This document shows positions 12,114-52,922 of a stretch of 64,000 bases of DNA, one piece after another. Within the stretch, counting starts at the first letter, position 1; every line of letters starts with the position of its first letter. The stretch is from Thermococcus sp. 4557 (lineage in GTDB: Archaea > Methanobacteriota_B > Thermococci > Thermococcales > Thermococcaceae), in NCBI RefSeq assembly GCF_000221185.1, contig NC_015865.1, positions 1,302,001 to 1,366,000 of the forward strand. The letters are read 5' to 3'. The notes under the pieces were generated by a model. It was not told the DNA's origin and made no database searches. It saw only the letters and a list, made by a program, of their open reading frames with translations. The translations under genes were made by a program, and so were the position numbers.

Positions 12114-13085
12114 ATGAAGTGTTCAAAGTGCGGCCGTGATGCAGTCTATCACGCGCGCTACACGGGCAGGTACTACTGCAGAAAGCACTTCAACGAACTA
12201 GTGGAGAGGAAGTTCAAGGAGACCGTCAAAAGGTACCGCCTCATAGAGAAGGGTGAGAGGATAGCCGTGGGCGTGAGCGGTGGAAAGGACAGCGTCGTTC
12301 TCATGCACCTCCTGGCGAAGCTGCGTGAGAAGTTCCCGTTCGAGCTGATCGCGATAACGATTGACGAGGGGATAGCAGGATACCGGCCCCCCAGCGTCGA
12401 GATAGCCAAAAGGAACGCGGAGAAGCTGGGCATAGAGCACAGGGTCTATTCATTCAAGGAGTACATGGGCTTCACCCTGGACGAGACAGTTGAGATTATG
12501 GGGAGCTTTGAAAAGGGAGAGAGAGTCGGGGCGTGCTCCTACTGCGGCGTCTGGAGGCGCTGGCTCCTCAACTACGCGGCGAAGGACGTCGAAGCAGACA
12601 AACTGGCGGTCGGCCACAACCTCGACGACGAGGTTCAGATGTTCGTCATGAACATACTGCGCGGCGATGTGGCGCGCCTCGGGAGGACGGGCCCCTACTA
12701 CGAGGAAATCCACCCGGAGCTCGTTCCGAGAATAAAGCCCCTCCGCGAGATTCCCGAGAAGGAGATAGTCCTCTACGCGGTTCTGAACAACATAGAGGTT
12801 GATTTCAGCGAGTGCCCCTACGCGGTCGAGGCCTTCCGGGCGGAGATAAGGGACTGGATAAACGAGATGGAGGAGAGGCACCCGGGGACGAAGTACCAGA
12901 TACTGAGGAGCTACGACAAGCTGTTCCCCCTCATAGCGAGGACGTACACCAAAAGGACGAGCGAGCTGAACCGCTGCAAAATCTGCGGCCAGCCGACGAC
13001 GGGAGAGATATGCAAGGCCTGCCAGTTCCGCCTGCAGGTGGAGAAAAAGGCCAGGGAGAAAGGGCTGACCTTCAGAGTTGAGTGA
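12114..13085 (+). CDS. ttuA: tRNA 2-thiolation enzyme TtuA (tRNA-5-methyluridine54 2-sulfurtransferase)
   Basis: A 323-aa PP-loop ATPase. Features in order: an N-terminal zinc finger (CSKCGRDA...YCRKHF), the ATP pyrophosphatase loop VGVSGGKDSVVLMHLL, ACSYCGVWRR and SECPYAVEAFR carrying the Cys residues that in TtuA hold the [4Fe-4S] cluster, and a C-terminal zinc finger (CKICGQPTTGEICKACQ). TtuA makes 2-thioribothymidine at tRNA position 54, which stabilises tRNA at high temperature. A TATA-like CTTTTTAAG lies at 12076-12084, about 33 bp before the ATG. The related NcsA/CTU1 (wobble U34) is the alternative; length and both zinc fingers favour TtuA. Confidence 0.88.
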   Translation: MKCSKCGRDAVYHARYTGRYYCRKHFNELVERKFKETVKRYRLIEKGERIAVGVSGGKDSVVLMHLLAKLREKFPFELIAITIDEGIAGYRPPSVEIAKRNAEKLGIEHRVYSFKEYMGFTLDETVEIMGSFEKGERVGACSYCGVWRRWLLNYAAKDVEADKLAVGHNLDDEVQMFVMNILRGDVARLGRTGPYYEEIHPELVPRIKPLREIPEKEIVLYAVLNNIEVDFSECPYAVEAFRAEIRDWINEMEERHPGTKYQILRSYDKLFPLIARTYTKRTSELNRCKICGQPTTGEICKACQFRLQVEKKAREKGLTFRVE

Positions 13086-13090
13086 GCTAA

Positions 13091-13142
13091 ACAACCATTT
13101 ATAAAGGGCCGTTCAGTATACTGAACAACCTTTATAAAGGTT
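13091..13142. promoter_or_regulatory. Tandem 16-bp palindromes overlapping promoter of the DUF4143 ATPase
   Basis: Two perfect palindromes abut without a gap: GTTCAGTATACTGAAC (13111-13126) and AACCTTTATAAAGGTT (13127-13142). The second contains the TATA box TTTATAAA, centred about 27 bp before ATG 13161, so the transcript is probably leaderless. A near copy, ACAACCATTTATAAAGG, starts at 13091, so an ACAACC(A)TTTATAAAGG unit occurs twice around the first palindrome. This is operator-like architecture covering the promoter; the binding protein is unknown. Confidence 0.7.
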
Positions 13143-13160
13143 GAGTGAGTAAACGCTACC

Positions 13161-14459
13161 ATGGACGAGAACCTCGCGCGGGTCATTGTTGAGTGGCAGG
13201 AGAACTGGACGCCGGAACTAATCGAAAGGGACTTTGACTTCTCCCTGATTCCCGAAAGGCCAAAAAAGATCATCACTTTCGCAGGATGCAGGAGAACGGG
13301 CAAGACATACCTGATGTTCCAGCTGATAAACTGGCTTTCCAATAAAATACCCCGGGATGAGATTTTTTACATCAACTTCGAGGACGAGAGGATAGAGAAG
13401 AAAACCGAAACGCTCACCGAGCTTATCCCCACAATCGAGGAGCTATTTGGGAAGAAAGAAAGGCTTTACCTGTTTCTCGATGAAATCCAAAATATTCCGG
13501 GATGGGACTCATGGGTCAGACGGGTACATGACTCAAGAAAAGACGTGAGGCTCTTCCTGAGTGGTTCTTCTTCAAAGCTATCAAGCAGGGAGATACCCAC
13601 ATCGCTCAGAGGTAGGGCCCTCACATTCGAAGTCTTCCCGCTGAGCTTCCCGGAGTTCCTCCGCTTCAAAAACTTCGAGGTGCCAGAAAGAGTCGAATTC
13701 AGCGGGAAGAAAAGCCAGCTCCTAAACCTCCTGAGGGAATATCTTCTCTACGGGGGCTTTCCGGAGGTTGTCCTCTCCGACGATAAAAAAATAAAAGGCA
13801 TGATAGTCAGGGATTACTTCAACACGATTATTGCGTTGGACATTGTCGAAAGGTACCGGATACGGAACCCAGAGGAGCTGAGGGCGCTTCTCAGGTTGCT
13901 TCTCAACTCAGAGTACTTCAGCCTGAGCAAAGCTGAGAAAACTATGAGAAGTCTCGGATATTCGGTCAGCAAGGCAACTCTGGCCAACTACCTCCGCTAC
14001 CTGAACGAGTGCTACTTCACCTTTCCTGTAGAAGTGTACTCACCCAAGGTCAGGCTGAGAATCCAGCACCCCAAGAAGATATACTTCGTGGACACGGCTT
14101 TCCTCACGTTCCTGAGCGTGAAGTTCAGCGACAACATCGGCAGGCTCATGGAGAACGCGGTCTTCATCGAGCTCATGAGGAGGGGTAGGGAGGTTAACTA
14201 TGCCTTCGGCGAAAACTGGGAGGTGGACTTCGTTCTGCCAGAGGAGGAAACGTTGATTCAGGTGAGCTACGACGTTTCGAGGCCGGAGACACTAGAAAGG
14301 GAACTCAAAGCTCTGAGGAAGGCAAAGCGACTCTTCGGGTGGAAAAATGCAAAGCTGATAACGTGGGACGTTGAGAAGGAAACGGACGGAATCGAAATAA
14401 TACCCCTATGGAGGTTCCTCCTTGATTATCGAGACCGCAATTTCACCGGAGGAACTTGA
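13161..14459 (+). CDS. AAA-type ATPase, DUF4143 family
   Basis: A 432-aa protein. The N-terminal AAA part has Walker A AGCRRTGKTYL (about residues 37-47), Walker B LYLFLDEIQN and a sensor-like FLSGSSSKLSS. The C-terminal half fits DUF4143, with NWEVDFVLPEEETLIQVSYD as a degenerate PD-(D/E)xK-like core in which Gln stands where the catalytic Glu would be. These ATPases are abundant and patchily distributed in Thermococcales; their role is unsettled. The ATG lacks a Shine-Dalgarno sequence and lies about 27 bp from TATA, so it is probably leaderless. The 3' end overlaps a small ORF by 38 bp. Confidence 0.85.
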   Translation: MDENLARVIVEWQENWTPELIERDFDFSLIPERPKKIITFAGCRRTGKTYLMFQLINWLSNKIPRDEIFYINFEDERIEKKTETLTELIPTIEELFGKKERLYLFLDEIQNIPGWDSWVRRVHDSRKDVRLFLSGSSSKLSSREIPTSLRGRALTFEVFPLSFPEFLRFKNFEVPERVEFSGKKSQLLNLLREYLLYGGFPEVVLSDDKKIKGMIVRDYFNTIIALDIVERYRIRNPEELRALLRLLLNSEYFSLSKAEKTMRSLGYSVSKATLANYLRYLNECYFTFPVEVYSPKVRLRIQHPKKIYFVDTAFLTFLSVKFSDNIGRLMENAVFIELMRRGREVNYAFGENWEVDFVLPEEETLIQVSYDVSRPETLERELKALRKAKRLFGWKNAKLITWDVEKETDGIEIIPLWRFLLDYRDRNFTGGT

Positions 14460-14616
14460 GGAGATAAGAAGGAAGAGCGGGGCAGAGGTTAAGCTGACGG
14501 TTCTCGGGAAAATCGAGAGAAACGGCATACCCCTCAGCAGGGTTCTGATAGAGGGAAACGAAAGGGAAATCGAGCGCTTCATGGAGAGGCTCCGCCTGGC
14601 GAGGGCTGGGGGCTAG
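14422..14616 (+). CDS. Small hypothetical protein (64 aa)
   Basis: TTG start with GAGGT about 6 nt upstream, inside the end of the DUF4143 ATPase gene. The protein is charged, with a predicted beta hairpin (AEVKLTVLGKIERNGIPLSR) and a C-terminal helix (EREIERFMERLRLARAGG), a plausible small globular alpha/beta fold. I do not recognise the family. The overlap suggests translational coupling to the ATPase, but it may be an older gene whose 5' side was invaded by the ATPase unit. Confidence 0.5.
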   Translation: MIIETAISPEELEEIRRKSGAEVKLTVLGKIERNGIPLSRVLIEGNEREIERFMERLRLARAGG

Positions 14617-51551: not shown

Positions 51552-52922
51552 ATGTTTAGAGAATTCGTCAATCGCCAGGAAGAGCTTAAAACCCTCGAAG
51601 AGCTGTGGAGCGGAGAGGGGTTGACACTGGTTCTCGTTTACGGTAGGCGGAGAGTTGGAAAGACGAGACTTCTTGAAGAGTTCTCACGAGGCAAAAAAAG
51701 GATTTTCGTTATCTTTGAGGACAAGCCGAGGGAATACAACTTCAGGCTCCTCTCAAAGCGGGTCTCTGATTTCGTGGGCTTTAACGTCGAAGTTCATGAT
51801 CTTCCCTCGCTGTTTGCCCTTTTAAAGGGGTTAAGCAGTGAGCGGATACTCTTGATTCTGGACGAGTTCTCTTACCTGATCAAAAAAGATGGGGGAATTC
51901 TCAGCGAACTCTCACGGGCCATCGAGGAGAACAGAGACCTAAACGCCCTGGTGATTGTTTCGGGTTCCTACGTTTCACTCCTTGAAAGGGAGTTCTTCAG
52001 CTACTCAAGCCCAATCTACGGAAGAAGCGATGCAAACATCAAAGTCCAGCCCCTCCAATTCAAGAACCTCTTCGAGTGGTTCGACGCGAGTACAGAAGAC
52101 CTCGTGAAAATATACTCGGTGACCGGCGGAACTCCAAAATACCTCGAATTCTTCAGCGGAAGGAACGTCGAGGAGGAGATAAGGGCCAACTTCTTCAACT
52201 CGTCCGCTTTCCTCTTCAGGGAGGCGAGGGCCCTTTTAAGTGAGGAGCTTAGGGAGCTATCCACGTATCTGGCAATACTGGAGGCCATAGCAAGGGGGAA
52301 CACAAAGGTCACACAGATAGCGAACTTCTGCTACATGAAGGAAAACCAAGTCGTGCCGTACCTGAGGGTTCTCGGTGAGCTTGGGATAGTGAGGAAAGTA
52401 ACGCCCCTGTTCGGAAAGAAGGGAATTTACGAGATAGCCGACAACTACTTCCTCTTCTGGTCGCGCTTTGTTAATCCCTACTACGAAGAGATTGAGGGGA
52501 ACTTCGTCGAGGCGGCAATCGAGGACTTTGACAGGAACTTCAACACCTTCCTTGGAAAGCCATTCGAAGGGATCGCGAGGGAGTTCATGATCGAAGCGAA
52601 CAGAAAAAACGTCCTGCCCTTCAGATTCACGAAGATTGGAAGGTGGTGGCACAGGGGAGAGGAAATAGATTTAGTGGCTCTAAATGAGAACTCCAAAAAA
52701 GCCCTTTTTGTTGAGGTTAAGTGGAGCGATTTAACGTCAAGAGAGGCCGAGAAGGTTCTGAAACGCCTTGAGAAAAAGGGCGAACTCGTTGGACTTGAAG
52801 ATTACGAGAAGCATTTCGGAATAATCGCGAAAAGGATTGAGGAAAAAGAAAACCTTGATCTGGCCTTCGACTTAAGGGACTTTGAGAGGATCCTACCCGG
52901 TGAAAGGAAAGAAAAAGTTTAG
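51552..52922 (+). CDS. Archaeal ATPase with DUF234 C-terminal domain
   Basis: 456 aa. LVYGRRRVGKTRLLEEF is Walker A, ILLILDEFSYLIKKDGG Walker B and VIVSGSYVSLLEREFF the sensor. A winged-helix-like region (VTQIANFCYMKENQVVPYLR) precedes DUF234, whose WWHRGEEIDLVALNENSKKA and LFVEVKWSDL keep the E-x-D...ExK core of PD-(D/E)xK nucleases. These proteins are numerous in Thermococcales genomes; a nuclease role is inferred. Contrast with the DUF4143 ATPase at 13161, whose core is degenerate. Confidence 0.9.
   Translation: MFREFVNRQEELKTLEELWSGEGLTLVLVYGRRRVGKTRLLEEFSRGKKRIFVIFEDKPREYNFRLLSKRVSDFVGFNVEVHDLPSLFALLKGLSSERILLILDEFSYLIKKDGGILSELSRAIEENRDLNALVIVSGSYVSLLEREFFSYSSPIYGRSDANIKVQPLQFKNLFEWFDASTEDLVKIYSVTGGTPKYLEFFSGRNVEEEIRANFFNSSAFLFREARALLSEELRELSTYLAILEAIARGNTKVTQIANFCYMKENQVVPYLRVLGELGIVRKVTPLFGKKGIYEIADNYFLFWSRFVNPYYEEIEGNFVEAAIEDFDRNFNTFLGKPFEGIAREFMIEANRKNVLPFRFTKIGRWWHRGEEIDLVALNENSKKALFVEVKWSDLTSREAEKVLKRLEKKGELVGLEDYEKHFGIIAKRIEEKENLDLAFDLRDFERILPGERKEKV

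Follow-up and report, generated by a model that had tools for sequence, protein, structure and literature searches.

Self-repression of defence genes is known in kind: BrxR/CapW and the type II antitoxins repress their own synthesis through inverted repeats at their own promoters. These are dedicated small regulators, whereas the gene considered here encodes the effector ATPase. The closest structural relatives of this protein are the archaeal AAA+ ATPases SSO1545 (2fna) and PABY2304 (2qen), its best structural matches with Z of 13.8 and 14.6 over model residues 15-320; we know of no promoter operator for either. Orc1/Cdc6 proteins, which combine AAA+ with a winged helix and to our knowledge have no PD-(D/E)XK domain, are also structural neighbours of the model (1w5t, Z 12.2, rmsd 4.5; 2qby, Z 11.3, rmsd 9.2), though not the top family. 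They act, Orc1-2 included, as global regulators or initiators on shared motifs, with no private word per paralog. In the available passages of PMC9738581, Orc1-2 is described as binding its own promoter.

In terms of defence classification, the ATPase falls under PDC-S01, a PADLOC candidate in which an ATPase is fused to a PD-(D/E)XK domain; the PDC-S01 profile matches the window protein at E=7e-114 (residues 20-422), and PDC-S01 profiles match 25/25 members of alignment A2. According to the accessible part of PMC12988326, PDC-S01 is among the most widespread prokaryotic defence candidates, with 9,986 archaeal and 29,494 bacterial systems, and validation is pending for most such candidates. 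That part of PMC12988326 describes neither promoter operators nor self-regulation for PDC-S01, both of which are newly proposed here, and the literature passages covered contain no mechanism for this candidate. The nearest published idea is a pair from the Sulfolobales, SiRe_2374/SiRe_2373, in which a wHTH protein and an AAA-PD-(D/E)XK protein are proposed, in the passages available from PMC11065993, to form an antiviral pair; there, the presumed DNA-binding regulator is a separate gene, whereas at the present locus the ATPase itself appears to be the DNA reader. No published account of such private self-operators was found in the open-access literature, and the new part is a family of single-gene ATPases whose members would each have operators of their own, set at a shared pitch.

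The promoter array and its orthologs

The window, that is, the whole stretch of 64,000 nucleotides from Thermococcus sp. 4557 that was analysed (genome positions 1302001-1366000), contains the following features at this locus:

12114-13085, + strand: ttuA-like gene, a 2-thiouridine synthetase, PP-loop with TtuA LIM domain (Pfam PF01171/PF22082); its last codons overlap S1
13077-13092, no strand: predicted operator site S1, GTTGAGTGAGCTAAAC, which overlaps the stop codon of ttuA and is a weaker version of S2, the latter lying 34 bp further downstream
13098-13105, no strand: TATA1, TTTATAAA, between S1 and S2; kept in orthologs
13111-13126, no strand: predicted operator site S2, the central perfect palindrome GTTCAGTATACTGAAC (from sequence and conservation)
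13127-13142, no strand: second palindrome, AACCTTTATAAAGGTT, holding TATA2 (13131-13138) and centred ~26 bp before the start codon
13144-13159, no strand: possible third site S3, degenerate and weak, located 33 bp further downstream than S2
13161-14459, + strand: AAA_14-wHTH-DUF4143 ATPase, 432 aa, PADLOC PDC-S01 (Pfam, PADLOC, AlphaFold2 model and structural matches)
14422-14616, + strand: small overlapping ORF with a TTG start, 64 aa, TIGR04140 family (NCBIfam TIGR04140); overlaps the end of the ATPase gene

Read directly from the sequence, the two perfect 16-bp palindromes put forward in the original prediction are present and abut (13111-13126 and 13127-13142); the TATA box TTTATAAA forms the centre of the second one, and the unit ACAACC(A)TTTATAAAGG does occur twice, starting at 13091 and at 13124, so that the two TTTATAAAGG copies are spaced by exactly 33 bp. 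A single 16-bp palindrome means little, because three perfect ones were found in the window against 1.13 expected from base composition; for an abutting pair, the expectation is 2e-5 per window. Overlooked at that stage was the weaker site S1, which lies partly inside the end of ttuA. S1 and S2 are equal at 11/16 bases and, over the window gene and 15 orthologs, the offset of -34 gives the best self-match of S2, with a mean of 8.2/16 identical positions against a background of 4.3 (sd 1.0). As for S3, it is identical to S2 at 9/16 positions in the window, and its mean of 5.75/16 over the 16 promoters is no better than that of other offsets. The position of TATA2, centred ~26 bp before the ATG, points to a leaderless archaeal promoter and transcript.

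The description of an array resembling an operator, placed at the promoter of a DUF4143 ATPase with a patchy distribution, holds, and the array is conserved. What had been missed is that the palindromes are no local oddity: most of the related ATPase promoters that were examined have this kind of layout. Orthologous promoters do have the palindromes: the order site, TATA, central palindrome, TATA, ATG is common to the window gene and its 15 orthologs, which are 75-97% identical, and the same promoter order is seen in a broken-frame ortholog (L054) and in a second copy in genome G048 (L119). The start of S2 lies 49-50 bp before the ATG in 16/16 promoters. Paired changes in both arms of S2 are found in several lineages (e.g., GTTTAG..CTAAAC and GTCCAG..TGGAC); 11/16 present genes keep 7-8 of the 8 palindrome pairs, and 5/16 keep 4-6. 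The label of “orphan” did not survive, the ATPase being a PDC-S01 candidate with relatives: among the matches listed, four to the protein are in its own genome, itself included, and at least one is in each of 58/61 genomes of the genus.

The word GTTCAGTATACTGAAC occurs once in the 2.01-Mb genome. The 61 genomes of the genus have it at 44 places when up to two mismatches are allowed; a reversed-pattern control has 5. All 13 places with 0-1 mismatch are located at an ortholog or at a vacated site beside ttuA, as are 5/31 of those with two mismatches (18/44 overall). The remaining 26 places, each with exactly two mismatches, lie elsewhere in the 61 genomes and exceed the control of 5; one of them, in G051, precedes a paralogous ATPase.

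In four genomes (G002, G024, G059 and G048), the ortholog is found away from ttuA and retains the array (TATA-site-TATA); no ttuA or TIGR04140 gene was found beside these relocated copies of the window subfamily. Regulation of ttuA by the array was considered and set aside, since the array stays with the ATPase at four loci without ttuA. The relocated copies (L045-L047 and L119) are within ~3 kb of DUF234 ATPase genes (L297, L300 and L301), and those of G002 and G059 are also within ~3 kb of a further DUF4143 gene; such proximity to other ATPases of this kind suggests clusters of defence-candidate ATPases.

At the ttuA locus itself, the ATPase is present in some genomes and missing from others. 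Of 57 ttuA loci found, 56 were read by eye (two of these run off the contig end): 13 have the ATPase near ttuA, 4 have fragments of it (L072, L080, L095, L103) and ~12 have promoter remnants only, and some loci join ttuA directly to the small ORF (e.g., L083, L085, L093, L196). This variety would fit repeated gain and loss of the ATPase. The 8 palindrome pairs were counted in twelve remnants at ttuA loci, including two that retain fragments of the ATPase: 4-7 pairs are kept in the remnants against 4-8 at present genes, and clear palindrome decay after loss of the ATPase was not seen in this comparison. With regard to type II toxin-antitoxin systems, the adjoining and overlapping gene here is the TIGR04140 ORF, which is found next to ttuA even at loci lacking the ATPase; we know of no function for TIGR04140.

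Operator words and pitch across the family

In paralogs (35-44% identical), the TATA boxes of the promoters are also surrounded by palindromes, and the word differs from one subfamily to the next, such as TTGGTAC..GTACCA twice, TTGTACTGTATG..AGTACAA twice, TGGTAAA..TTTACCA twice, ATGTTTTATGTATAAAACAT, TTGTGTATTA..AATACACAA and others. Placement relative to the TATA box differs by subfamily: in several, the second site enters the start codon, and in others, both sites are upstream of TATA. A shared known Thermococcales regulator was set aside on the grounds that each subfamily has a different word and that the words are not known to match the motif of any such regulator.

What the subfamilies have in common is the spacing of their sites, scored as the best ungapped direct repeat among spacings of 20-60 bp. 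This repeat falls at 32-35 bp in 95/107 distinct Thermococcaceae DUF4143-ATPase promoters, the ATPases being no random draw but the top-scoring hits for P0001 and DUF4143, against 30/374 window segments. The 107 promoters result from de-duplication of 119 records, which held duplicate genes and two Aenigmatarchaeota (L200, L201); L054 and L272 were excluded for having no usable ORF and L056 for missing upstream DNA. Among Thermococcaceae subfamily representatives (60%-identity clusters), 14/15 have the pitch; in two of the 15 subfamilies, half or fewer of the members do (2/4 and 1/3). The Aenigmatarchaeota, tested afterwards, have it in 10/18 promoters from two genomes (where L332 had no usable ORF and L326 and L329 were bacterial) and in 12/23 from a further sample (23 of its 28 loci having a usable promoter), for a total of 22/41 against ~11% of shuffles (p 3e-11) and 21/37 subfamily representatives. 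The inverted-repeat score of 16 representatives (15 from Thermococcaceae, one from Aenigmatarchaeota) is likewise high, at 9.5 compared with 6.4 (p 6e-7) in 56 upstream regions from elsewhere in the window.

Thirty bacterial DUF4143 loci, from the order to which a Clostridiales genome belongs, show no excess of the 32-35-bp pitch, which is found in 5/30 against 12% in shuffles; the inverted-repeat score is at least 9 in 16/30 against 8%, a signal that terminators of the upstream genes can also give. Bacterial DUF4143 genes (L345-L374) often have long inverted repeats near the start, and some of these hold a TATAAT-like sequence inside a GGCTA/TAGCC-type dyad. The sister ATPases of the DUF234-ATPase_2 type (PDC-S27) have palindromes too, with an inverted-repeat score of at least 9 in 15/30 against 3.8% of shuffles, for a set that is made up of 29 of 30 loci and the window’s own gene and that includes close relatives not reduced to independent clusters; however, only 1/30 has the 32-35-bp pitch, and the 15 palindromes are grouped around the start codon, with their ends 75-95 bp ahead of the Walker A codon. 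Examples among the DUF234 genes L294-L323 are the start-codon-overlapping palindromes ACTTACTC..GAGTAAGT and GTGATAATCAC. The window’s own DUF234/ATPase_2 gene, a second defence-candidate ATPase, lies at 51552-52922 on the + strand and matches PADLOC PDC-S27 at E=2e-35.

For a second subfamily, whose operator is the only one scanned in this way, a search of the 61 genomes with up to one mismatch returned 34 distinct places and none for the reversed-pattern control. At 27/34, the operator is within ~100 bp upstream of an ATPase, and in the genome studied here it is present exactly twice, at a distance of 35 bp, upstream of the ATPase of this subfamily. At the other seven (L403-L409), tblastn at E 0.01 found no ATPase. 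These seven are one shared locus, with the same tyrosine-recombinase gene beside the operator in 7/7 (Phage_integrase, 77-100% identical); the opposite flank has an ADP-dependent sugar kinase gene, which is further off in L406 and L409. The ATPase-bearing loci of the subfamily that were tested are all behind this same kinase gene (12/12); the subfamily sits at one locus, and gene and locus are therefore inseparable there. No other target gene was seen for this operator in the 61 genomes at up to one mismatch. The orphan operator pairs at L403-L409 have a TATA box, and the GGTAC/GTACC arms of their second site are intact in 5/7. By eye, many of the ATPase subfamilies are found time and again after the end of one characteristic gene; the subfamilies seem to have preferred loci, the kinase gene being the one case checked.

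The ATPase and covariation with its operator

Both Pfam domains of the window protein score over their gathering thresholds, PF13173 at 125.7 bits (cut-off 27) and PF13635 at 63.0 bits (cut-off 28.1), and NCBIfam has no match for the ATPase. In the AlphaFold2 model (mean pLDDT 73.6 overall, 5 sequences), an AAA core (~35-167) is followed by a winged helix (237-290; helices 237-249, 255-264 and 271-284 and strand 287-290) and by an alpha/beta, PD-(D/E)XK-like C-terminal domain (~305-415). The nearest structures are 2qen and 2fna, followed by CED-4, an NLR resistosome and Orc1/Cdc6. These matches cover mainly residues 5-319; since they say little beyond residue 320, it is a sequence motif and published descriptions that make the C-terminal domain a putative PD-(D/E)XK fold. 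A phmmer search of the PDB with the single protein gave nothing useful, and a profile search of the PDB gave 2fna at E 2e-8 and other AAA-type matches, with RecA chains first in the ranking though no single stretch passes.

The part of the protein that tracks the operator was sought in distance correlations. In the window subfamily, operator distance correlates with that of the winged helix at 0.74 versus 0.39 for the AAA domain; the partial correlation of the winged helix given the AAA and middle regions is 0.68 (p 0.0005), and the AAA effect disappears given the winged helix. When the C-terminal domain is added as a control in this subfamily, the domain retains a partial r of 0.50 (p 0.001) and the winged helix one of 0.17 (p 0.10). 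The winged helix stands out in two other subfamilies (0.49 and 0.67) and not in the remaining four; cluster 6 kept a single member in this comparison, and its values are void. As the C-terminal-domain control gave a mixed result, the claim was widened from the winged helix to the C-terminal half, which comprises the wHTH and the PD-(D/E)XK-like domain, the split into halves being chosen after the winged-helix result had been seen. Over seven subfamilies of 6-21 members, once the N-terminal half is controlled for, operator divergence is explained by the C-terminal half (Fisher p 8e-9), as judged by distance-matrix permutation tests that are anti-conservative, and thus optimistic, on related sequences. 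The effect has p <0.05 in 5/7 subfamilies and is not significant in two. In the reverse test (N-terminal half given C-terminal half), p is 0.12, and one of the seven subfamilies tracks both halves. The N-terminal half is encoded nearer to the promoter, yet it is the weaker tracker. The control DNA beside the operator, taken from the side of the start codon, tracks the N-terminal half in 6/7 subfamilies, as linkage predicts, but also the C-terminal half in 4/7.

Readings of the array

Positions 13077-13159 are probably an autogenous operator array, through whose private sites the ATPase would repress its own gene. Two inverted-repeat sites, or three in some subfamilies, would surround the TATA/BRE region of a leaderless promoter; as the 33-34-bp pitch is close to three helical turns, they would lie on one face of the helix, which fits cooperative binding. 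A multimer of the ATPase could then occupy its own sites, using the winged helix together with the PD-(D/E)XK-like domain next to it, and block TBP/TFB, so that its own level stays low; binding may depend on the nucleotide bound by the AAA domain. An outside repressor need not be assumed, as the signs point, if indirectly, to the C-terminal half of the ATPase itself. We infer the identity of the binder, the repressive outcome, the role of ATP and the purpose of the array alike; for binding, the sign is the co-variation between protein and operator, which is partly mixed. The role of DNA reader is supported by the winged helix of the model and by structural neighbours that include Orc1/Cdc6, solved on origin DNA. 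With its own word in each subfamily, several paralogs in one cell need not cross-regulate. Orphan operators remain at the seven loci of the second subfamily and, by eye, at ~12 ttuA loci without the ATPase; recent loss or another use is needed to account for them.

It is unlikely that the sites are instead operators of separate host transcription factors that silence mobile ATPases in the manner of xenogeneic silencers. Palindromes are the typical sites of dimeric HTH regulators, orphan copies outlast loss of the ATPase, and GTTCAGTATACTGAAC has 26 two-mismatch matches elsewhere in the 61 genomes. Yet a word per subfamily would require about one such regulator per subfamily, the second-subfamily operator is found (at up to one mismatch) only before ATPases or at the vacated locus, no ttuA or TIGR04140 neighbour was found beside the four relocated copies of the window subfamily, and changes in the operator track the ATPase’s own C-terminal half.

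Quite improbable is the explanation that the ATPase acts on the sites in some task other than regulation, such as partition (a centromere), recombination or insertion, or cruciform processing, and that their position at the promoter is a coincidence. Phased repeats occur at iterons and centromeres too, the protein resembles origin-binding ATPases and has a PD-(D/E)XK-like domain, and the sites persist at vacated loci; however, in many subfamilies they flank or abut the TATA box and extend to the start codon, for which control of transcription is the best fit, and no copies of the second-subfamily operator were found elsewhere in the 61 genomes (up to one mismatch). There is very little to be said for dyads that work in RNA, where a hairpin would control translation or termination: perfect dyads are able to form hairpins, but a TATA box ~26 bp before the ATG would give a leaderless mRNA without the dyads, and a hairpin needs no direct repeats at fixed pitch. 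Least credible of all is chance or low complexity at AT-rich promoters, for although TTTATAAA is itself palindromic and about one single 16-bp palindrome is expected per window, conservation, paired changes, spacing relative to both shuffles and real segments, and the contrast with the sister family (1/30) speak against it.

A bolder extension of autogenous repression, and a doubtful one, is that each archaeal PDC-S01 ATPase is a self-addressing single-gene module that encodes its own DNA word, and for which reading this word with the C-terminal half is also the working mechanism. Derepression would follow when the DNA or proteins of an invader, or nucleotide changes, pull the ATPase off its promoter; alternatively, the ATPase would recognise similar DNA on invaders. 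Orphan operators at vacated loci would then be selected tags or sinks and not debris. If every archaeal member does have a recognition word of its own at its promoter, each such gene supplies a ready DNA ligand for biochemical, structural and specificity studies, the family constitutes a natural set of orthogonal archaeal operator-repressor pairs, and there is a regulatory reason for the coexistence of several related mobile ATPases in one cell.

As regards the C-terminal domain, an active PD-(D/E)XK nuclease motif contains an acidic residue and the lysine of ExK; in the window protein, this ExK motif looks degenerate by sequence (D356...Q367-V-S, with no lysine). The proteins L325 and L344 keep E-V-K where most of the 25 aligned A2 members have Q-V, so that active nucleases may exist in the family alongside degenerate ones.
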